Assembly: GCF_000819565.1 (NCBI RefSeq) | Contig: NZ_CP004393.1 | Location: forward strand, 1,922,001 to 1,986,000 | Length of the DNA stretch: 64,000 bases | DNA from: Celeribacter indicus | GTDB taxonomy: Bacteria; Pseudomonadota; Alphaproteobacteria; Rhodobacterales; Rhodobacteraceae | Direction of reading: 5' to 3' | Part shown: positions 21,740-35,370 of the stretch, piece after piece | Numbering within the stretch: position 1 is the first letter of the stretch | How the letters are laid out: each line of letters begins with the position of its first letter | Notes under the pieces: generated by a model | What the model was told of the DNA's origin: nothing | The model's database searches: none | The model's input: the letters and a program-made list of their open reading frames with translations, nothing else | Made by a program: the position numbers and the translations under genes

Positions 21740-23068
21740 GGGAGTGTCATGAACTATGTGTATCTGGCCCGGCCCATGCGGTTTCAGATACTCAAGCGTC
21801 GAAGCGCTCGCCGAACATTATGGCGAACTGGTTGCGGGCTGCAAACCATTCCCGGACATTTCGGCCATCCTTTTCGAATTTGCGGATTGCCAGATAGATC
21901 AACTTGGTTGCGGCCTCGTCGGTCGGGAAGGAGCCCCGCGTCTTGATCGTTTTCCGGATCACGCGGTTCAAGCTTTCTATGGCATTCGTGGTGTAGATGA
22001 TTTTCCGGATCGCGGGATCGAAACCAAAGAACGGGATCACCTCCTGCCATGCCCGGCGCCAGGCCGGGGCGATGGAGGCGTATTTCCCGGCCCATTTCTC
22101 CTCGAAGGCATCGAGCTCGGCCTCGGCCATATCGGCGGTCGGGGCACTGTAAATCCGGCGTAGGTCCGCAGCCACGGCCTTGCGGTCCTTCCAAGAGCAG
22201 AAATTCAGGGAATGGCGCACCAGATGCACGATGCAGGTCTGGACCATGGCGTCCGGGAACGCGGCGGTGATGGCCTCAGGAAAGCCCTTCAGCCCGTCCA
22301 CGACCGCGATCAGGATGTCCTGCACGCCCCGGTTCTTCAACTCGTTCATCACCGAGAGCCAGAATTTGGCGCCCTCGTTCTCGGCGGTCCACAGGCCCAG
22401 AACCTCACGGCTCCCATCACGGGTGACGCCCAGGGCGACGTAGACGGCCTTATTCTTCACTGTCCGGCTGTCGGCGTCACGGATCTTCACCCGTAGAGCG
22501 TCGAAGATCACGATGGGATACATCCGATCCAGCGCGCGGGTCTGCCATTCCCTGACCTCGTCCAGCACCGCATCGGTGACGCGGCTGATCAGGTCGGGCG
22601 AGACCTTCAGGCCGTAGAGATCAAGCAGGTGAGCCTGGATGTCCCGGACCGTCAGCCCGGCCGCATAAAGCCCGATGATCTTGTCATCGATCCCGTCGAT
22701 CCGGGTCTGGCCCTTCTTCACCAGCTCGGGCTCGAAGCTGCTGTCGCGGTCGCGAGGCACCGCCAGCGGCAGTTCGCCGTCTTGGCTCTTCAGCACCTTG
22801 CTCGAGGCGCCATTGCGGCGGTTGGTCTGGCCGGGTGGAGCGTCTTTGCCTTCCTCGTAGCCAAGATGCGCCGTCAGCTCCGCGCCCAGCATTCGTTCCA
22901 TGAGCTTGATCTTCAGCTCTTTCATCAGCCCGGCATCGCCGAGCAGATCCTCAGGGCGCTCCACACCCTTAAGCAGTTCGTCCAAGATGTCTTTCGAAAT
23001 AGTCATTCATGCTTCCTTTCGGTGCAGCATGAACCGGATCAGCCATACACAAAAGGTCGGACACTCTC
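21740..23068 (-). mobile_element. IS256-family element inside IS3 OrfB
   Basis: Imperfect inverted ends share GAGTGTC and, about 10 bases further in, GTGTAT. They are flanked by CCCATTC copies (21733-21739 and 23069-23075), a 7-8 base target duplication. The length of 1329 bases is normal for the family. Confidence 0.8.
21792..23006 (-). CDS. IS256-family transposase
   Basis: This full-length 404-residue mutator-type transposase starts MTISKDILDELLKG. It contains the DDE region with PIVIFDALRVKIRD, LIAVVDGLKGFPEAI and the C-terminal glutamate block TNAIESLNRVIRK. No interruption is visible, so the element is probably active or only recently silent. It interrupts the IS3 OrfB. Confidence 0.95.
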   Translation of the reverse strand: MTISKDILDELLKGVERPEDLLGDAGLMKELKIKLMERMLGAELTAHLGYEEGKDAPPGQTNRRNGASSKVLKSQDGELPLAVPRDRDSSFEPELVKKGQTRIDGIDDKIIGLYAAGLTVRDIQAHLLDLYGLKVSPDLISRVTDAVLDEVREWQTRALDRMYPIVIFDALRVKIRDADSRTVKNKAVYVALGVTRDGSREVLGLWTAENEGAKFWLSVMNELKNRGVQDILIAVVDGLKGFPEAITAAFPDAMVQTCIVHLVRHSLNFCSWKDRKAVAADLRRIYSAPTADMAEAELDAFEEKWAGKYASIAPAWRRAWQEVIPFFGFDPAIRKIIYTTNAIESLNRVIRKTIKTRGSFPTDEAATKLIYLAIRKFEKDGRNVREWFAARNQFAIMFGERFDA

Positions 23069-23858
23069 CCCATTCCAGAGTGGCGTATTCCACGGCGTCC
23101 AGACTGCGCCACGGGCCACGGCGGTGGATGACCTCCGCCTTGAAGAGACCATTGATTGTCTCGGCCAAAGCGTTGTCATAGCTGTCACCGACGCTGCCGA
23201 CCGAGGGTTCGATTCCTGCCTCGGCCAAGCGTTCGGTGTATTTTATCGCCAAGTATTGCGATCCGCGGTCTGAGTGATGGATCAGTCCCACACCAGGCTG
23301 CCGCTGATGAACAGCCTGTTCCAAAGCGTCGAGAACGAAGCCTGTGTGAGCCGTGCGGCTGACGCGCCACCCAACGATCCGGCGCGCGAACGTGTCGATC
23401 ACGAATGCCACATAAACGAACCCTTGCCAGGTGGCGACATAGGTGAAATCGCTGACCCAGAGCATGTTCGGTGCCGGCACCCGGAATTGCCGGTTTACCT
23501 TGTCCATCGGGCACGGCTGCTTCTTGTCAGGGATCGTCGTTTTATGCGGCTTGCCCCGGATGACGCCCTGCAGGCCCAAATCCTTCATCAACCGGGCTAT
23601 CGTGCATCGGGCCACATCAAATCCTTCCCGCCGCATCTGGCGCCAGACTTTGCGCACGCCATAGACCTTGTAATTCTCATCGAACACGCGCTCGATCTCG
23701 GGGCGAAGCTCGTCGTCGCGCTTGAACCGATCCGAGCGCAGATCAGGGTCGGCCCGTTTGGCCAGATGATCGTAGTATGTGGACGGGGCAATCGGCAGGT
23801 GCTTGCAGATCGGCTCGACCCCGAGCTCTCCACGATAATCGTCGATAAAGGCGATCAT
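23007..23858 (-). pseudogene. IS3-family OrfB transposase, truncated by IS256
   Basis: The 283-codon frame holds most of the rve integrase domain: [35 protein letters not shown] and SVGDSYDNALAETINGLFK. The last codons after YATLEW belong to IS256 sequence; the true C-terminus lies at 21623-21739. The start overlaps the OrfA stop in ATGA. Confidence 0.88.
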
Positions 23859-24181
23859 GACTTCGGTCGGCGGTCGAGCTCCGCCATCGCAAAATACGCC
23901 GACGCCTTCCGCAGGATCTCATTCGCCTGCTTGAGTTCGCGGTTCTCGCGCTCCAGCGCCTTCATCTTCTCGGCCATCTCGGTACTGACCCCAGCACGGT
24001 CGCCACGATCAATCTCTGCCTTTTTGACCCAGTCATTCAGCGTGTTCGTCGAACAGCCTATCTTCGCCGAGATCGATACGATCGCTTGCCAGCGGCTCTC
24101 ATGCTGACCGGCGTTGTCCAAAACCATACGAACCGCTCGCTCGCGCACTTCAGGGGAATATTTGTTCGTTGTCTTGCTCAT
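23855..24181 (-). CDS. IS3-family OrfA (HTH protein)
   Basis: The 108-residue protein starts [19 protein letters not shown], with a helix-turn-helix ([16 protein letters not shown]) and a leucine-zipper-like helix ([17 protein letters not shown]) that joins OrfA to OrfB. It is intact, but its OrfB partner is disrupted. Confidence 0.9.
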
Positions 24182-27072: not shown

Positions 27073-27331
27073 GATCGGCGATCGCACCGTCTGCCTCGCG
27101 CAGGCCGACGACTGGCTGAACGCCCACGAGAGCGACGAGAGCGCCTTCAAGTCGAAGCGCTGGCTGACCCAGCCGCCGACGGAGAAACAGCTGCAATACC
27201 TCTCGCCCGAACAGCAGCAGGATTACGGGCTCACCCGCTACAGGGCGTCTGCGCTGATCACCTTCCAGTTCAACCGGCGCGACATTCGCCGGCTCGTCAT
27301 GTCGGCCGCGCCTGACCGGAGGGCCGCGTGA
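27073..27331 (+). pseudogene. Phage DEAD/DEAH helicase, C-terminal fragment
   Basis: The frame encodes DRTVCLAQADDWLNAHESDE, SKRWLTQPPTEKQLQYLSPE and LITFQFNRRDIRRLV, which resembles the C-terminus of helicases from Rhodobacterales prophages. The helicase core is missing. Its TGA overlaps the GTG start of the next gene. Confidence 0.6.
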
Positions 27332-27756
27332 ACCATGTCGCGCAAATCCCATCCCCGCCCGCAGAGGCTCCGGATCGACCGCGCTGTGATCGCCTTTGGC
27401 ATCCGCGCCCGGTCCTCTGCGCCGTCTGCACTGCGCGCACCCGCGGCTTCGGCTGGTTTGATCCCCACCGACCGCGTCCAACCCGCACCCGCCGCTGGTT
27501 CTGCTCCATGGGCTGCCAAGCGGCCTTCACCCGCAAAGCGAAGAGAGGACTGAGCATGGTCGATTTCACCGAAGAAGAAACCCAGGCGCTGCCCGCCGTC
27601 ATGCGCGCGCTTGCCCCCGAGATGGAGCGCATCGGCTGGGACCGGCCGCTGGGCCAACTGACCCAGAACGACATGCACCGGCTGATCGTCACCACCGTCG
27701 AGGCCTTCCGCGCCGAGATGGCCGAGATCGCCAGCCAGTCGGAGATTCCGTTCTGA
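27328..27756 (+). CDS. Prophage DUF6511-like protein
   Basis: The 142-residue protein starts at GTG overlapping the helicase stop (GTGA). The N-terminal third has a zinc-ribbon-like arrangement (PVLCAVCTARTRGFGWFDP, then FCSMGCQAAF) and the C-terminal part is a helical region (QNDMHRLIVTTVEAF) ending in EIPF. Such genes lie between helicase and nuclease genes in alphaproteobacterial prophages. No function is established. Confidence 0.6.
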   Translation: MNHVAQIPSPPAEAPDRPRCDRLWHPRPVLCAVCTARTRGFGWFDPHRPRPTRTRRWFCSMGCQAAFTRKAKRGLSMVDFTEEETQALPAVMRALAPEMERIGWDRPLGQLTQNDMHRLIVTTVEAFRAEMAEIASQSEIPF

Positions 27757-28494
27757 TGCTGGACTACAACAAGCGCCCCGGTTTCGCCGAACGGATCAAC
27801 GCGGCCGTGGACGCGGCTCTCGAGGCTGAGCGCGAGGCAACCCCGCCGCGCGACTATCTGGGTGCGTCCCGGCTTGGGCACTCCTGTGAGCGGGCGCTGC
27901 AGTTCGAATTCGCGGGCGCTCCGAAGGACGAGGGCCAGGACTTCTCGGGTCGGTCGCTGCGGATCTTCGCGATCGGGCACGAGCTCGAGGATCTTGCCAT
28001 CCGCTGGCTGCGGGCGGCGGGGCTCGATCTGGTCACCCAGAAGCGGGACGGCGGCCAGTTCGGCTTCTCGGTCGCGGCCGGGCGCATCCGCGGCCATGTC
28101 GATGGGATCGTCTCCGAGGCCCCCGCGGCGCTCGGGCTGCGCACCCCGGCCCTCTGGGAATGCAAGACCATGAACGCGAAGAACTGGCGCGAGACGGTGG
28201 CCAAGGGCGTGACCGCCGCGAAGCCGGTCTATGCCGCGCAGATCGCGCTGTACCAAGCCTACATGGAAGCGACGGTGCCGGGCATCAGCGCGAACCCCGC
28301 GCTCTTCACCGCGATCAACAAGGACACCGCCGAGCTGCACCACGAGCAGGTTGCCTTCGATGCCGACCTCGCGCAGCGCATGTCCGACCGCGGCGTGCGA
28401 ATCCTGCGGGCGACCGATGCAGGCGAGCTGCTCCCGCGCATTGCCGCCAATCGCGACTTCTTCGAATGCCGGTTCTGCCCGTGGGCCGACCGCC
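27756..28494 (+). pseudogene. Prophage RecB-like (PD-(D/E)XK) nuclease, 3' truncated
   Basis: About 246 codons are native: RDYLGASRLGHSCERALQFE, a nuclease site with HVDGIVSEA followed by LWECKTMNAK, and the terminal cysteine motif ECRFCPWADR. This is the exonuclease/Cas4-like arrangement. After CPWADR the frame runs on as nonsense to 29234 because a deletion joined it to a tail gene. The first 246 residues include the catalytic core, so partial activity cannot be excluded. Confidence 0.75.
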
Positions 28495-28497
28495 GCG

Positions 28498-29043
28498 ATG
28501 CGCGAGGCCGGGACCGGGCTGAAATCGGCGTGGCGGCTGCAGATCACCGGCGCGGGACTCGGCACACGGCTCGCCAACTCGATCCGGAGCCAGAACTTCC
28601 CGAGGTCGGGCGAAAGCCTCGACGCCGCGGCGCTGGTCTGGTCCAAGGCCCCGGTCATCGTCGGCGCGCACGACACCGGCCCGCTGATCCGCTCGAAGAA
28701 CGGGTTCTGGCTGGCGATCCCGCTGCCCGCCGCAGGCAAATCCCTGCGCGGCGGCAGGATCACGCCCGGCGAATGGGAACGGCGACGCGGTCTGCGCCTG
28801 CGCTTCGTCTATCGCCGCGCCGGCCCGAGCCTCCTGGTTGCCGAGGGGCGGCTGAACACAAAGGGTCAGGCGGTGGTGTCGCGCTCGAAGACCGGGCGCG
28901 GAAAGGTCACCGCGCCGATCTTCCTGCTGGTGCCGCAGGTCAAGCTGCCGAAGCGGCTGGATCTGGCGCGGGATGCAGATCGGGCGTTGGACAGCGTGCC
29001 GGGGCTGATCGTGGCGAACTGGGTGGAGGCGCGAATGCGTTAA
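28498..29043 (+). pseudogene. Prophage DUF6441-like tail/head-tail protein, 5' truncated
   Basis: 181 codons begin MREAGTGLKSAWR and include AAALVWSKAPVIVGAHDTG, GGRITPGEWERRRGLRL and LLVPQVKLPKRLDLA. The family normally has about 30 more residues at the N-terminus; here they are replaced by the nuclease gene's end. The ATG at 28498 is internal to the original gene and has no ribosome site. Confidence 0.65.
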
Positions 29044-29172
29044 ACGATTGTGGTTTGGGTTACGCAATCGCGCGTCCATTACCATCGGCGATGGAACAGC
29101 GGGTACCCTCGATCATCAATGCTCGTCTGATCTTCGGTTTGGCTGAAGGAGGCTATCGATCGGCGAGGAGAC

Positions 29173-31293
29173 TCAAGTGGAAGCATCTTTTGCCTTGTCC
29201 GCTAGAGCCTTTGATGCATCACCCACCTGAATGACAGAGCGACTCGATCTAAACAAACCTGATATCTGATCGGCAAGTCGTTGCTCCTCGTGATCCTGTT
29301 GCCATTCCCAAACAAGGCATCCAAGCTCATCGATAGGGTTGCTGGTCTGGATACAATCGACGATCACGTACCAGTGCGAGCTTTTGGTGTCGTACTTGTG
29401 CTTTCTGCCAATGCTGCTCGCTGCTGCGCGTGATTTCTCGCTCAAACGGTCAACTACAACGTAAGTCAGGCCTCCAGCCGTGGTTGGGATCGAAAATGCC
29501 TTAAGTGCCTTCCCTGCGGCTACCTCTTCTCGAAGTTCAGTGATATGCGCCGCCATGTCGCGAAGCATCTCACTTGAGAAGTCGTAGAGATCGACCACCA
29601 CCGCGGCGATTTCTGGCCCCTTGGACCTCAGCTCCCTCAGGAGATCGGTGACAATCGGTATATCAAAGCGCTCCAGGATCCCTATCGGGCGGATACCCTC
29701 TACACCCACATCGAAGGGCATCATGAAGTCGTCGACCGGCTGCGCGTAATCCCTGTCGATGACCAGACCGTGGAACTCATCCGGCAGGGCCAGCTTGTGC
29801 GTCAGGTGGAAGCCTATGAAGCAGTGCTCGCTTTCCGACATGACTTGGTCGTACAGGTCCGAGCGGCTCTTCAGGTAGAAGATCATGTCTACCGGGTTCG
29901 GAAAGAGCCGGGCGGCACAGTCCAAGACTCCAAGATCCCAGATGACGGGCGCAATTTCCTTCTCGCGTTCTAGAAGGCTACGGGCCAGCATGGTTACCGC
30001 GGGGAAGTGGTCACTCAGGACCACCATCGGGAACAACCGATTCACACGGCGCACCTCGATCTTGGTTCCGTCAGGCCGAACGCAGGTGGCGCCCGTTCTA
30101 ATCAACCGTGCGCACGTCAGCGCCTGACGGTATGGGGCCTGGATAGCGTCACGGAAATCCCGGCGCAATGCGGCCTTGTCACCTGCCCGAGCCTGCATGG
30201 TGATCCGCTTAGACTTCGCTTGGACGACCAGCACGAACTCTCCGTATGTGACGAGGATGTCGATCTCACCCGCCTTGTCTTTCGTCCCATTGTAGAGGGT
30301 CACGTTCTCATGGACGTTCTCCGGCCCGAACACGGATCGAAGGATGTGCGCTGCGGTAGCCTCAAGGAAAGTGCCGCGGTTAGTCTTCGCGATTTCCATG
30401 TATTTCTCATCCCGCAACATCCAGTAGAAGGGGCTCTCATAGAGCGTTTCGAAGAGCCGATACTGATTAGGAACGTAAAGGAAATCGCCGATCCGAATGA
30501 TCGGGCAAATCATGGTCTCGTTGATCGCAAACGGATCCGTGAAACCGAGATTCGTCGCGGTCACATCGATCGCGAACAGTCGGTCGAACGCGTCCGCCTT
30601 GCCCTTGAACTTTCGCCGAAGGTCCGCGAGCGGGATCATTAGGCTGTTGGTCAGGTCACCGCTATTCAGGGCGGTGCCCGACTTACGGAGTTGACCGACC
30701 ACTGACATCTGTCGGTTGATCCGGTCCGAGATGAACCGGGCGATTTCGATCATCGGGAGGATAGAAATACCCTTATTTCGCAGAAGCCAGTCGCCGTCGC
30801 GCCGGTATCTTTGCCGGATAAACGGTAGGAACTGATGGAGATAGAAACTTTCTGCAGCGTAATAAATGGCTTCGCGGGCCATCGGACCGACAACATCAAG
30901 GGGGTTCTCAACCTCAAGCAGGTTTGCGGGCAGCGCAGACTTGACGTCGATCATGACGCGGTCGTGAAGCTCCCGAAGAAGCCGGTCAGCCTCCGACATG
31001 AAGACCGAGGCGTCGCAGAGCACAGTGTGTGTTCGATCAGACTCAGACTGGACTGCCAATCCCAGCAGGAGCATCAATTCCGGCTTGTTTAGGCGGGAAG
31101 TCGACCAACGGTGCTCCGGATCATCGACAACGGTTCGCTCTTGCGTATCGATCGTATAGACCCAGTCGCGATAGATGATCTCTGAAATACCGTGTAATGC
31201 TCCGTCTGAGGTCGCAAGGCTACGCAAGTCTGCAAAGATTTCCGCTGAAGCACGCGGCTCTGGTTGAAAGTCGGTCATTATCGGTTCCGCCAT
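29173..31293 (-). CDS. Large PD-(D/E)XK-nuclease-like protein, prophage cargo
   Basis: The roughly 706-residue protein (723 from the most upstream start at 31344) is not a phage structural protein. A central block reads KAGEIDILVTYGEFVLVVQA followed by KSKRITMQARAGDKAALRRD. The acidic residue, hydrophobic strand and QxK are the core of the PD-(D/E)XK nuclease fold (about residues 345-385). The N-terminal half is helical and charged; the C-terminal third was not recognised. No membrane segment is seen. Start options are 31344, 31293 and 31278; the last has a weak GGCGGA upstream. It lies opposite to the phage genes with its own promoter space, the usual arrangement for prophage-carried defence genes. 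The defence role is inference. Confidence 0.65.
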   Translation of the reverse strand: MAEPIMTDFQPEPRASAEIFADLRSLATSDGALHGISEIIYRDWVYTIDTQERTVVDDPEHRWSTSRLNKPELMLLLGLAVQSESDRTHTVLCDASVFMSEADRLLRELHDRVMIDVKSALPANLLEVENPLDVVGPMAREAIYYAAESFYLHQFLPFIRQRYRRDGDWLLRNKGISILPMIEIARFISDRINRQMSVVGQLRKSGTALNSGDLTNSLMIPLADLRRKFKGKADAFDRLFAIDVTATNLGFTDPFAINETMICPIIRIGDFLYVPNQYRLFETLYESPFYWMLRDEKYMEIAKTNRGTFLEATAAHILRSVFGPENVHENVTLYNGTKDKAGEIDILVTYGEFVLVVQAKSKRITMQARAGDKAALRRDFRDAIQAPYRQALTCARLIRTGATCVRPDGTKIEVRRVNRLFPMVVLSDHFPAVTMLARSLLEREKEIAPVIWDLGVLDCAARLFPNPVDMIFYLKSRSDLYDQVMSESEHCFIGFHLTHKLALPDEFHGLVIDRDYAQPVDDFMMPFDVGVEGIRPIGILERFDIPIVTDLLRELRSKGPEIAAVVVDLYDFSSEMLRDMAAHITELREEVAAGKALKAFSIPTTAGGLTYVVVDRLSEKSRAAASSIGRKHKYDTKSSHWYVIVDCIQTSNPIDELGCLVWEWQQDHEEQRLADQISGLFRSSRSVIQVGDASKALADKAKDAST

Positions 31294-31366
31294 TGTCGGC
31301 CCATGAATATCTCCGATTCTGGCTCGGATGAGCGCTCGCAACATAGCGAATTATGACAGGTTCGGC

Positions 31367-31786
31367 ATGCTTACCTTCCGCGAAACCATCCTCGCCGCGC
31401 TGCACGCGCGGCTGTCGGCGCTACCCGCCACCGCCCTGCGCGGCGACGTGCTGCCCGAGCGCGTCCCGGCCGAGGGCCTGCTGATCCTGCGCGATGGTGA
31501 GCCGGGGGAGCCGGAGGTGACGCTCTCTCCGCTGCGCTACCACTACCAGCACCGGGCCGAGATTGAGGCCGTCGTGCAGGGCGCTGCACGTGAGACCGCC
31601 TTCGACGCGCTGACCGCCAGCATCGGCACGGCGCTCGCCGCCGACCGCACGCTGAGCGGGCTCTGCGATTGGGTCGAGGCGGAAGCCCCGCGCCCGGTCG
31701 ATCTGCCCGTCGAGGGCGCGGCCAGCCTGAAGGCCGCCGTGATCCCGGTGGTGCTGCACTATTCCACGGCCGATCCGCTCGGCTGA
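31367..31786 (+). CDS. Phage tail completion/terminator-like protein
   Basis: The 139-residue protein starts MLTFRETILAALHARLSALP. It has a beta-rich centre with LSPLRYHYQHRAEIEAVVQG and ends VIPVVLHYSTADPLG. It has the size and position of tail terminator proteins, between the DUF6441-like gene and the tail tube gene. The start at 31367 is preferred over 31328 because the conserved core begins there. Confidence 0.65.
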   Translation: MLTFRETILAALHARLSALPATALRGDVLPERVPAEGLLILRDGEPGEPEVTLSPLRYHYQHRAEIEAVVQGAARETAFDALTASIGTALAADRTLSGLCDWVEAEAPRPVDLPVEGAASLKAAVIPVVLHYSTADPLG

Positions 31787-31810
31787 TCCCGACAACCCGA
31801 GGAGAACACC

Positions 31811-32752
31811 ATGGCACGAGCCCAGGGGGCGCGGGCGCTGATGGCGCTTGCGTTCGAGACGACCTATGGAACGCCGCCCGCCAGCGGCTTCATCCGCATG
31901 CCCTTCGCCAGCACCTCGCTCGGGGCGGAGCAGCCGCTGCTGAACTCCGAGCTTCTCGGCTACGGCCGCGATCCGCTGGCGCCGATCAAGGACGCGGTGA
32001 CGGCCGATGGCGATGTCGTCGTGCCACTCGACGCCGAGGCTTTCGGCTTCTGGCTGAAGGCGGCTTTCGGCGCGCCCACGACCACGGGCGTCGAGGCCCC
32101 GTACACTCACGAGTTCCAGTCGGGGTCCTGGACGCTGCCCTCGATGTCGATCGAGACCGGCATGCCCGAGGTGCCGCGCTACGCGACGTATTCCGGCTGC
32201 GTGCTCGACCAGATCACCTGGCAGATGCAGCGGTCTGGCCTGCTCACCGCAACCGCGCGGCTGGTCGCGCAGGGCGAGACAGTGGGCACGACCACCAGCG
32301 CCGGAACGCCTGCTGCGCTGGAGCTGAAGCGCTTCGGCCATTTCAACGGGGCGATCACCCGGAATGGGACCGCCCTCGGCAACGTGGTCTCGGCCGAGAT
32401 CACCTATGCCAACAACCTCGACCGCATCGAGACGATCCGAAACGACGGCCGCATTGACGGCGCCGACCCGTCCATCGCGGCGCTGACCGGTCGGATCGAG
32501 GTGCGGTTCGCCGACCAGACGCTGGTGACGCAGGCGATCAACGGCGAGGCTTGCGAGATGGAATTCGCCTACGTCCTGCCCTCGGGCGAGAGCTTCACCT
32601 TCACGGTGCACGCCGTCTACCTGCCACGCCCGCGCATCGAGATTTCGGGCCCACAGGGTGTGCAGGCCACCTTCGACTGGCAGGCCGCCCGCGACAGCAC
32701 TGTCGGCCGGATGTGCACGGCAACCCTGATCAACGACATAGAGGTGTACTGA
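31811..32752 (+). CDS. Phage major tail tube protein
   Basis: The 313-residue protein starts MARAQGARALMALAFETTYG, with later LPSMSIETGMPEVPRYATYS, NGAITRNGTALGNVVSAEIT and a C-terminal LINDIEVY. This is typical of long-tailed-phage tail tube subunits. A ribosome site (GAGGAGA) precedes the start. Its stop overlaps the next gene's ATG. Confidence 0.8.
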   Translation: MARAQGARALMALAFETTYGTPPASGFIRMPFASTSLGAEQPLLNSELLGYGRDPLAPIKDAVTADGDVVVPLDAEAFGFWLKAAFGAPTTTGVEAPYTHEFQSGSWTLPSMSIETGMPEVPRYATYSGCVLDQITWQMQRSGLLTATARLVAQGETVGTTTSAGTPAALELKRFGHFNGAITRNGTALGNVVSAEITYANNLDRIETIRNDGRIDGADPSIAALTGRIEVRFADQTLVTQAINGEACEMEFAYVLPSGESFTFTVHAVYLPRPRIEISGPQGVQATFDWQAARDSTVGRMCTATLINDIEVY

Positions 32753-33189
32753 TGCTCGCTCTCGACCTGACGAACGCGCCCCGCTGGCATGACCTCGCGC
32801 CCGGCGTCCGGGTGCAACTGCGCCCGCTGACCACGGCACTGATGGTGGCGACGCGCAGCGACCCGGCCGTCGAAGCTGTGCCGGAGGAGGCTTCCGACGA
32901 GGAACGCGCGGTCGCCTTCGCCAAGGCACTGGCCCGCCGCGCGGTGCTCGGCTGGGAGGGCATCGGCGACGCCGACGGGAAGCCGATCAATCCCAGCCCC
33001 GAGGCCATCGACGCGCTGCTCGACATCTGGCCAATCTTCGAGGCGTTCCAGCTGACCTACGTCTCCAAGGGCCTGCTGCTGGAACAGGAAAAAAACGCCT
33101 CCGCGCTCTCGCCGAATGGTCCTTCGGCGGGGGCGACCGATACTGCGAAGCCTGTACGCAAGCCTGCTCGGACTGCCCGGCGCGGCTGA
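32752..33189 (+). CDS. Tail assembly chaperone, zero-frame product (G-like)
   Basis: The 145-residue product starts MLALDLTNAPRWHDLAPGV and ends in a short lysine/proline tail. Its position after the tail tube gene and the slippery site near its end identify it as the shorter tail-assembly chaperone. In long-tailed phages this protein and its frameshifted extension wrap the tape-measure protein during tail building. Confidence 0.75.
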   Translation: MLALDLTNAPRWHDLAPGVRVQLRPLTTALMVATRSDPAVEAVPEEASDEERAVAFAKALARRAVLGWEGIGDADGKPINPSPEAIDALLDIWPIFEAFQLTYVSKGLLLEQEKNASALSPNGPSAGATDTAKPVRKPARTARRG

Positions 33190-33431
33190 ACCGTCCGGAA
33201 ACTCCGGAGGGTTGGCAGGTCTGGGACCTCGTCGGCCGTCTCGGCGGCCAGCTGCGCGTGCTCCCCGGCGCGGTGATTGGCTGGGACATGTCCGCCGCGC
33301 TGGCGCTCGGTGACGCCCTCGGCGTGCCGCCGCTCGCCATGGCCGAACTGCTGCCCGTCATCGAGGCGGTGATGGTCCGGAAGCTGAACGAGGAGCTGAG
33401 CGCGAATGGCGCCCCGGGTTTCAGGCCTTGA
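32752..33431 (+). CDS. Tail assembly chaperone, -1 frameshift product (GT-like)
   Basis: A canonical A_AAA_AAC heptamer at 33090-33096 lies in the correct phase. Slipping back one base continues as KKRLRALAEWSFGGGDRYCE, then a cysteine-rich CEACTQACSDCPARLN and VWDLVGRLGGQLRVLPG, ending at 33431 (about 226 residues in all). The extension resembles small proteins usually annotated separately in Rhodobacterales prophages, and it has no good start of its own, which supports frameshift expression. Confidence 0.65.
33090..33096 (+). promoter_or_regulatory. Programmed -1 ribosomal frameshift site
   Basis: A_AAA_AAC in phase with the chaperone frame (codons GAA AAA AAC). Both frames downstream encode plausible protein, the -1 frame for 111 more codons. 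Confidence 0.7.
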
Positions 33432-33801
33432 TCTTCTCGATCAGGGTGACGCCGGGCAGCCCCTGGAAATGTGCGTCGCAGGTCAGGAGCGTCGCGCCCT
33501 GTGCGCGGGCGGTTGCGAAGATGATCGCGTCGGCAGTAGCGAGCTTGTGCTCCCGGCACGCCTCCGCCGCCGCCAGCGCGATCTCGGTGTCGAGCGGCAC
33601 CACATGGCAGACCTGCGTGAAGGCGATGACCTGATCGGCTTTGTCCTCGCCGACCTCGCGTGTCAGCCATTTCGCCAGCTCGAGCTGGACCATGGTCGGG
33701 ACGAGCCAGTCGGCCTGTTCGGGCAGATGTTCGGACAGCTTCTCGCCGGTCGGCGAACCGACGAGCCACTCGATCCACGTCGACGTGTCGACGAGGATCA
33801 T
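33421..33801 (-). CDS. vapC: PIN-domain toxin (VapC-like)
   Basis: The 126-residue protein starts MILVDTSTWIEWLVGSPTG and has a PIN-domain acidic set: D5, an acidic residue in the mid helix (LDTEIALAAAEACREH), ADAIIFATAR and the final TCDAHF. VapC proteins cleave RNA, often tRNA or rRNA. Its start overlaps the antitoxin stop (ATGA at about 33801). Its 3' end overlaps the end of the phage chaperone frame by about 11 bases, so it entered right at the prophage edge. Confidence 0.85.
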   Translation of the reverse strand: MILVDTSTWIEWLVGSPTGEKLSEHLPEQADWLVPTMVQLELAKWLTREVGEDKADQVIAFTQVCHVVPLDTEIALAAAEACREHKLATADAIIFATARAQGATLLTCDAHFQGLPGVTLIEKIKA

Positions 33802-34013
33802 CAGAACCGATCCGTCCGGTCGCGATAATCGGTGGCGGACGCCCCTCGCGCGAGCCCCTTCAGCGCCTCCCGCTTGGGCACCGGCACAAGCAGAACGCCC
33901 GTGCCTTTCGGGATGAAGGCGAAGGTCAGCCCGGCCTCCCAGTGCTGGGCGGCCCGGATCGCCTTGGGAATCGAGATCTGGAACTTCGAGGACAGGGTCG
34001 CGGTCTCGGCCAT
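33801..34013 (-). CDS. vapB: AbrB/SpoVT-type antitoxin (VapB-like)
   Basis: The 70-residue protein starts ATLSSKFQISIPKAIRAAQH, the swapped-hairpin AbrB/MazE DNA-binding motif, with the conserved FQISIPKAIR. It would bind the toxin and repress the pair's promoter. The ATG at 34013 or one two codons upstream (34019) begins it. A longer open frame upstream to 34463 belongs to a different truncated gene (drmD remnant). Confidence 0.8.
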   Translation of the reverse strand: MAETATLSSKFQISIPKAIRAAQHWEAGLTFAFIPKGTGVLLVPVPKREALKGLARGASATDYRDRTDRF

Positions 34014-34069
34014 GGTCATACCTTCACTTGATCGATAGCATAAACGTAAGACGCCCATGCGGCGAAAGC

Positions 34070-34391
34070 AAGGAGTCTGGAGCAGATCCCGGTCAGCGGC
34101 TGTCGCGGATCGCCATCGAACTGCCCGGATGTGAGCCGCTAGGACGTCGGCGCTGTCGGGATGACCGACACCAATGCTTGCCCATCGATCCTCGTCGAGA
34201 ACTCTTCTACCAATCTCAGCATCCCATAGGACATCGAGCTGTTCACCCTGGGCGTCGTCTGAGATGCAGGACAAGGCTATTGTGGGAAGGGTGCCGTCCT
34301 CGCCGACCAACGATTCCACCAACCATGGCTTACCTCGGACTTCAACGAAGCTGCCTGGTTGAATAGTTGAGTGCGCAGAGCCGTCGTTCAT
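34070..34391 (-). pseudogene. drmD: DISARM helicase DrmD, N-terminal fragment
   Basis: About 107 codons read IQPGSFVEVRGKPWLVESLV, then PTIALSCISDDAQGEQLDVL and RWRSATAADRDLLQTP. This resembles the start of DISARM SNF2-like DrmD proteins as I remember them. The helicase domains are absent; the sequence switches at about 34070 to the vapBC region. It follows the WYL regulator gene on the same strand, as drmD does in DISARM loci. Confidence 0.6.
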
Positions 34392-34440
34392 TTCGATTTC
34401 CGATCGATATATCTCACTGCAAACATTCGCCCAATCACGC

Positions 34441-35370
34441 TTACCCGTGCACTCCAAAGGCATTTTTGTTGCCGCCTGTCACAGCCTCACGATTTAATAG
34501 AACAATCGGCTGATCCTGTGGGCGCCGCGCGGCCGGGTCTGTGTCGAGCCCAAGCCGCCTTAGCGCGCAATAGAGAAGCGCGCGCCGGACTACGATCTCT
34601 GCCTTGCCGCCACGCATCCCGTAGTCGAGCGAGATGACCTTTGCCTGATTTTCCGAAAGGGCGGGGTGGGGCCCGACCTCCAGCGTGACCTCGGAATGCC
34701 AGTCGCGATCATCGTCGGCTGACGCTTCGCTCTCGCGCGACCCGCGGATGTCGAGGATCCGCGAGAGCAGGAAGTCCTTGAAGCAGTCATCGGTCAAGCA
34801 GAACGCCCGCGTATGCCAGCGGAACCCGTCGAACACGATGGCGTGCGGAGCGATCCAGCGCCACCGCGGCTCCGGGCTCGACAGGGACTGGTACTTAACC
34901 TCGATCGCCTCGGACTGGCGGATGGCACCGACGACTGAGCGAAGTGTCGCCGGCTCAACGCCGCGAACCGGCGTCGGGGCGGATGCGTAGGGTGGCAGGT
35001 CAGGGATCCAGCAGTCGTCGCGCTCCAGCACATCGTCGGCAACCAGGCGGAGCTGGGCGAGGTAATGCGCTGCGTCTGGCGGGCGGAACTTGCAGTCGAA
35101 GTCCGGGCCACGGACATAGGTGCGCGCGCTCTTGTCGTAGACCATGTTGTCCGGCGCCAGCGCGATGTAGCGATTCAGGTCAGAGGATGCCTGGTTCACC
35201 GAAACGCCGAACTGCTGCATCACGTCGATGCGGTTGACGTGCCCCTCCCAGAACAGGCGGAACTCGATGAACTCGAGCCGCTGCTCGATCCCCCAGCGAA
35301 GTTCAGCCTTGTCCCTGTCCACGTCGCGCTCCCGATCAGCCCTGTGCGCACGCGAACTGTGCGCGCCCAA
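34441..35370 (-). CDS. WYL-domain transcriptional regulator, defence-locus type
   Basis: The 309-residue protein has an N-terminal winged-helix (RLEFIEFRLFWEGHVNRIDV, FGVSVNQASSDLNRYI), a WYL domain (IEVKYQSLSSPEPRWRWIAP, GFRWHTRAFCLTDDCFKDFL) and a C-terminal WCX-like part (GPHPALSENQAKVISLDYG). This three-part plan is that of BrxR/CapW-like repressors of BREX, CBASS and DISARM loci. It lies directly upstream of the drmD remnant. It is intact although its locus is lost. Confidence 0.8.
   Translation of the reverse strand: MGAHSSRAHRADRERDVDRDKAELRWGIEQRLEFIEFRLFWEGHVNRIDVMQQFGVSVNQASSDLNRYIALAPDNMVYDKSARTYVRGPDFDCKFRPPDAAHYLAQLRLVADDVLERDDCWIPDLPPYASAPTPVRGVEPATLRSVVGAIRQSEAIEVKYQSLSSPEPRWRWIAPHAIVFDGFRWHTRAFCLTDDCFKDFLLSRILDIRGSRESEASADDDRDWHSEVTLEVGPHPALSENQAKVISLDYGMRGGKAEIVVRRALLYCALRRLGLDTDPAARRPQDQPIVLLNREAVTGGNKNAFGVHG

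Follow-up and report, generated by a model that had tools for sequence, protein, structure and literature searches.

The 64,000-nucleotide (nt) stretch of Celeribacter indicus DNA analyzed here (contig NZ_CP004393.1, positions 1,922,001 to 1,986,000; the window) contains a large gene for a predicted PD-(D/E)XK nuclease, which lies between two phage tail genes, here called the left and right anchors (Table 1). Its minus-strand open reading frame (ORF) runs from 31344 to 29173 and spans 723 amino acids (aa); the start at 31293 yields a protein of 706 aa, and the 701-aa copies in databases begin at the ATG that follows. The frame is open and runs in the opposite direction to the tail genes, just as an initial annotation made from the sequence had placed it. 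Judged by its genes, the region from 27328 to 33391 is a phage remnant. The initial annotation spoke of a prophage, and phage genes do flank the nuclease gene, but what is left is a decayed remnant rather than a full prophage: DNA similarity to the nearest prophage is limited to 28492 to 33391, genes are truncated, and no tape measure gene follows the chaperone, the place where relatives have one. A Pseudotabrizicola algicola prophage (L005; L085 and L204 are the same contig) and a viral contig (L084) carry the same cargo at the same place, with a protein 96% identical to the window's, and in L005 a 724-aa ORF follows the chaperone at the position of the RcMeacham tape measure gene. The GC (guanine plus cytosine) content of the window's slot is 0.56, versus 0.71 for the anchor genes.

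Table 1. Features of the phage remnant and its nuclease gene (window coordinates)
Feature	Residues	Position	Strand	Remarks
Small phage gene of unknown function (phrog_21342)		27328..27756	+	
Cas4-domain exonuclease gene (phrog_1990)		27756..28473	+	Lacks its 3' part; runs into left anchor
Left anchor, tail gene of phrog_6367		28474..29043	+	5'-truncated in the window; relative annotated as minor tail protein in RcMeacham
Cargo slot		29044..31366		2323 bp, between the two anchor genes
Upx-like/NERD-like PD-(D/E)XK nuclease gene (predicted)		29173..31293	-	706 aa; open frame extends to 31344
C-terminal part	481-706	29176..29853	-	SEC-C-like tail is extra in distant relatives, absent from the window's clade
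PD-(D/E)XK nuclease core (predicted)	301-480	29854..30393	-	Fold matches ranked below Upx span about 305-480; conserved active site
Active-site motif GEID...VVQAKSK	342-362	30208..30270	-	E343, D345, Q358, K360
N-terminal, mostly helical domain (predicted)	1-300	30394..31293	-	Matches Upx residues 32-289 when folded separately
-10-like hexamer CATAAT		31350..31355	-	Immediately upstream of the gene; putative promoter element
Right anchor, tail terminator (phrog_4204)		31367..31786	+	
Minor tail/tail tube gene (phrog_290)		31811..32752	+	
Tail assembly chaperone (phrog_313)		32752..33189	+	

The nuclease-like core noted in the initial annotation proved real but weak in profile libraries. The window protein scored 22.0 bits against the Pfam NERD family (PF08378; cutoff, 22.1), while a protein 95% identical to it (P0001) has a precomputed PF08378 assignment. 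In PADLOC, "Viperin-associated NERD" (PDLC02906) matched with an E value of 9.6e-5 over profile positions 371 to 455 only; with 85 of 542 positions covered and no full-length match, we rejected that name. A PHROGs search of the protein returned a single weak match, and the outer two thirds, likewise left unrecognized by the initial annotation, fell into no convincing Pfam family. Scoring of 8000 candidates in a protein search identified 309 homologues at an E value of ≤1e-3; among the 120 listed, four were full-length at 82 to 95% identity and the remaining full-length ones had 50 to 61%. Among the organisms named as sources are Rhodobacter capsulatus (95%, annotated as "NERD domain-containing protein") and members of Bradyrhizobium, Rhizobium, and Mesorhizobium.

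Residues E311, E343, D345, Q358, and K360 were invariant across 32 close relatives. In a wider alignment of 78 sequences, comprising the window protein and 77 loci from many phyla with identity down to about 24%, D345, Q358, and K360 were kept in 77 sequences (one row was gapped) and E311 in 76, while position 343 held E in 68 and D in 9. Loss of the catalytic residues, which the initial annotation had named as grounds against a defense role, was thus not seen. The active site has the QxK form, which is known from Mrr-type enzymes. A C-terminal SEC-C-like motif was present in 55 of the 78 sequences, with none in the window protein or in L006 to L017. Among six copies of the gene, of which L006 and L089 are identical, the ratio of nonsynonymous to synonymous substitution rates (dN/dS) was 0.13 to 0.31. 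Since the ORF has 309 homologues, conserved active-site residues, and these dN/dS values, it is more than a chance reading frame.

The best fold match, both for the whole predicted model and for the N-terminal domain alone, was Upx (PDB 9wuf). The whole-model match spans residues 15 to 565, with residues 566 to 706 lying outside it, and the protein has the Upx arrangement of an Upx-type N-terminal domain followed by a PD-(D/E)XK nuclease domain. Weak PDB sequence matches to a designed enzyme, a piece of alanyl-tRNA synthetase, and an N-glycosylase were dismissed as chance. Prediction and comparison together show a complete, conserved PD-(D/E)XK active site behind an Upx-matching N-terminal domain, under purifying selection; both nuclease fold and active site rest on modeling and conservation.

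The initial annotation had placed the gene where temperate phages carry cargo. We found the tail terminator in 82 of 295 Rhodobacteraceae genomes and assembled junction loci from its best matches, which are therefore not a random sample: 60 genome regions (L122 to L181) and 80 viral contigs (L183 to L262, kept from 588 relatives), plus the window, L005, and L084. Left out were L145, L149, L173, and L175 (no left anchor upstream), L158 (only a piece of the left anchor), 15 of the 80 viral contigs without a usable left anchor, and L204, the L005 contig. The final 122 loci (123 before duplicate removal) comprised 57 of genome type (55 regions, L005, and L084), 64 viral contigs, and the window; several of the viral contigs and members of the genome set probably share a source genome, so that not all loci are independent. 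All 122 loci were filled, with 429 to 3372 bp between the anchors (median, 1040; gap length is uncertain for L152, L180, and L224, in which the left-anchor match ends more than 15 aa early, and for L155, which has an unusual edge). The cargo fell into 75 clusters by nucleotide similarity, and its GC content was on average 13 points below that of the anchors (the difference exceeded 5 points in 113 of 123 loci), while the right anchor was 86 to 96% identical to the window's in the 121 other loci. Relative to the tail genes, the dominant cargo ORF was antisense in 45 clusters, in the same sense in 19, and ambiguous in 10; one cluster had none. The adjacent junctions in the same loci were interrupted in 10 of 117 cases (tail terminator to tube) and 2 of 105 (tube to chaperone). 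In this group of prophages, the junction between the phrog_6367 gene and the tail terminator serves as a hypervariable slot for cargo.

Four of 20 more distant relatives were empty at this junction, with gaps of -1 to -28 nt, and in all three isolated phages examined the two anchor genes are annotated as overlapping by 4 nt. Since the anchor genes overlap in empty relatives, the insertion sits at the overlap of two genes. A motif shared by the slot edges was rejected, as none was seen by eye, without a statistic, in 59 loci exclusive of the viral ones. Rarer insertions also occur after the tail terminator (L130, L131, L139, L146, L151, L152, L166, L179, L180, and L248) and, at a third site, after the tube gene (L206 and L213).

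We then scanned 93 cargo ORFs, picked from 141 candidates of the genome clusters (shadow ORFs included). Among the Pfam matches listed (25 of 36 families in a first set and 25 of 25 in a second) were mercury, chromate, cation, and sulfate transport families, MFS, ParD and TacA-like antitoxins, a protein kinase, RiboL-PSP HEPN (two), Abi_2, QueC, and nucleoside deoxyribosyltransferase. At an E value of ≤1e-3, PADLOC matches included PsyrT, ShosT, mREase_II, and RmrA in the first set (all 6 families listed) and, among the 25 of 47 families listed for the second, PD-T4-6, mad6, QueC, and others, each with one member; the kinase is of the PD-T4-6 type. As judged from these matches, the slot takes mixed cargo, of which defense-type genes form one component. 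The metal transport cargo (MerT/MerR type, chromate transporter, and cation efflux), found in L124/L140, L134/L142/L177, and L136, has a GC content near that of the phage. The C. indicus genome itself has two further tail module copies (L122 and L123; G000:C1:1834000-1842000 and 1901000-1909000), whose cargo, a 236-aa ORF with a weak zinc finger match, is identical in both and unlike the window's.

Among the family loci (L005 to L091), any of the window's four tail genes was found in L005, L084, and L085 only; since L085 is the same contig as L005, there are three independent slot copies, including the window. The same 2.2-kb unit, at 95% identity, is also present in Gemmobacter tilapiae (L006), G283 (L089), and a Rhodobacteraceae metagenome-assembled genome (L007), in each case without the window's tail genes. 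The unit is followed in L006 and L007 by a gene of 390 aa, which has a SMEK_N match in Pfam (L007) and an REase-type match in PADLOC (L006), and in L007 a 1076-aa PLD/ResIII/DUF3427 helicase gene precedes it. All three loci show at the slot edge a degenerate match to the tail terminator start, the top-scoring position in its locus under a profile of 113 starts from other hotspots, which hints that these non-phage copies may descend from a slot copy. This stub represents at most one event, because L006 and L089 are identical in the nuclease gene and share the stub sequence.

The initial annotation had proposed a search for homologues in defense islands, and their neighbors were indeed rich in defense-type families. 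For the immediate neighbors (100 of 137), 127 PADLOC families matched at 1e-10, a figure that counts families, many of them redundant, and not neighbors; by comparison, only three families, with one member each, were matched in a set of 100 of the 160 ORFs from eight arbitrary 20-kb Rhodobacteraceae regions. A conserved partner gene was rejected: across 77 loci and four neighbors per side, four clusters recurred in at least three loci, the largest in four. The Agrobacterium plasmid pAt (L003, 4624 to 12142) carries a distant relative with a SEC-C tail, arranged head to head with a gene encoding an AAA domain; a PLD-domain gene comes after the latter.

Our preferred reading, to which we give a probability of roughly 0.65, is that the gene encodes an Upx-like antiphage nuclease that acts as a single-gene system and travels as exchangeable cargo of prophages, the defense activity being the inferred part. 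The candidate antiphage role put forward in the initial annotation is supported by the slot, the conserved active site, the Upx fold match, and the defense-type neighbors, all of which are comparative or predictive evidence. In the lysogen, a promoter of its own would drive the nuclease gene, which reads antisense to a silent tail operon. Upon infection, the N-terminal domain, as a sensor or scaffold, may sense an infection signal or the invading DNA, and the nuclease would then act as a partner-free, metal-dependent DNase effector that cuts DNA. Either restriction or abortive infection could protect the lysogen and its prophage. Recombination within the conserved anchors would let related phages swap cargo, which could also end up in chromosomal islands. 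We give even odds to the fuller account, in which the junction is a dedicated one-slot exchange site swapped via its anchors and filled in all close relatives sampled, one cargo being a compact, widespread, and apparently undescribed Upx-like family that moves between prophages and chromosomal defense islands, its non-phage copies apparently keeping a short, degenerate tail terminator stub.

Several observations weigh against these readings. Only 4 of the 20 distant relatives were empty, and the gaps in L282 and L284 are uncertain (start not found); the isolated phages examined were only 3 of 15 records with a tail terminator match; and the slot also holds much non-defense cargo. The gene occurs in no record among 50,697 phages, and the stub scores -1.7 (L006), 1.1 (L007), and -1.7 (L089), versus at least 25 for true starts. 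In addition, 84 of the 87 family loci lack all four window tail genes. The initial annotation would have been undermined by homologues lying consistently outside mobile elements, and on this point the picture is mixed, with the three independent slot copies on one side and these 84 loci on the other. The same 84 loci, together with the defense-type neighbors, also argue against the idea that the cargo serves the element itself, for instance by keeping out sister phages or rival plasmids, and not broad host defense. We hold this to be unlikely, even though the gene occupies a phage slot and relatives occur on plasmids (32 of 72,556 records, 19 of these Agrobacterium) and, in some cases, near MobA/MobL-type relaxase genes.

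A role in DNA repair or another housekeeping or regulatory process, with the gene in the slot as chance cargo, would fit the many non-defense genes found there and the first description of NERD, going by the title of the reference, as a DNA-processing-related domain; the very patchy distribution of the family and the defense-type neighbors suit such a role poorly, and with the fold match to Upx they make it improbable. That the window copy is no more than an inactive remnant within a decayed prophage is highly improbable. The prophage is truncated at both ends, and the -10-like hexamer reads CATAAT in the window versus TATAAT at the same place in L005, L084, L006, and L007, but the frame is intact, the active site is complete, and changes relative to the five other copies are mostly synonymous (dN/dS, 0.15 to 0.27).

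Where the phage similarity ends, a gene with a PIN domain is preceded by an ORF that has a weak match of the MazE-like type (33424 to 34463, minus strand); the two are likely a toxin-antitoxin pair. A few kilobases to the left of the remnant, ORFs at 21792 to 24181 (minus strand) resemble, by eye, two insertion sequence transposase sets.

With this short, Upx-like protein, whose relatives span many phyla, the N-terminal domain and nuclease core shared with Upx could be studied without some 500 further residues. The slot, with its known anchor genes, can be mined for new defense candidates (75 clusters in our sample), and it poses a testable question: how is tail expression maintained with 0.4 to 3.4 kb between genes that overlap in empty relatives? 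Among the literature titles listed, none describes the slot or the protein family.

As a prophage hotspot, the slot belongs to a known kind and adds a new case to it: two conserved phage genes flank a site of high gene turnover, as in hotspots of the type described by Rousset et al. In that work (Rousset et al. 2022, PMC9122126), the hotspots of prophages and satellites are likewise small, high-turnover slots between two conserved phage genes, situated by the cos site in P2 and P4 and between cI and integrase in Vibrionaceae; the Rhodobacteraceae slot differs in lying inside the tail operon of a different phage group and in having metal transport genes among its cargo. NERD-domain defense proteins, which include Mokosh type I and Nhi-like proteins (PMC10952713), share the PD-(D/E)XK subtype (PF08378; PADLOC "Viperin-associated NERD") with the window protein, although weakly. 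Unlike them, the window gene stands alone, without a viperin or helicase partner within the window, and its product has Q instead of E at an active-site position and a different N-terminal domain. For Shedu (SduA), the match covers the nuclease core (model residues 302 to 465).

The predicted fold makes the protein a compact Upx relative; Gao and colleagues reportedly described Upx in 2020 as a large single-gene PD-(D/E)XK protein. The window protein is likewise a large single-gene PD-(D/E)XK protein, and the fold match covers both the N-terminal domain and the nuclease; it is, however, 706 aa long, compared with 1212 residues for 9wuf. Upx gave no sequence match among the PDB sequence matches listed, a set in which the presence of 9wuf is unconfirmed, and PADLOC 2.0.0 gave no match under the Upx name, the existence of an Upx model there being unconfirmed. 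Table 1 of PMC10855318 places Upx under nuclease-type antiphage systems.
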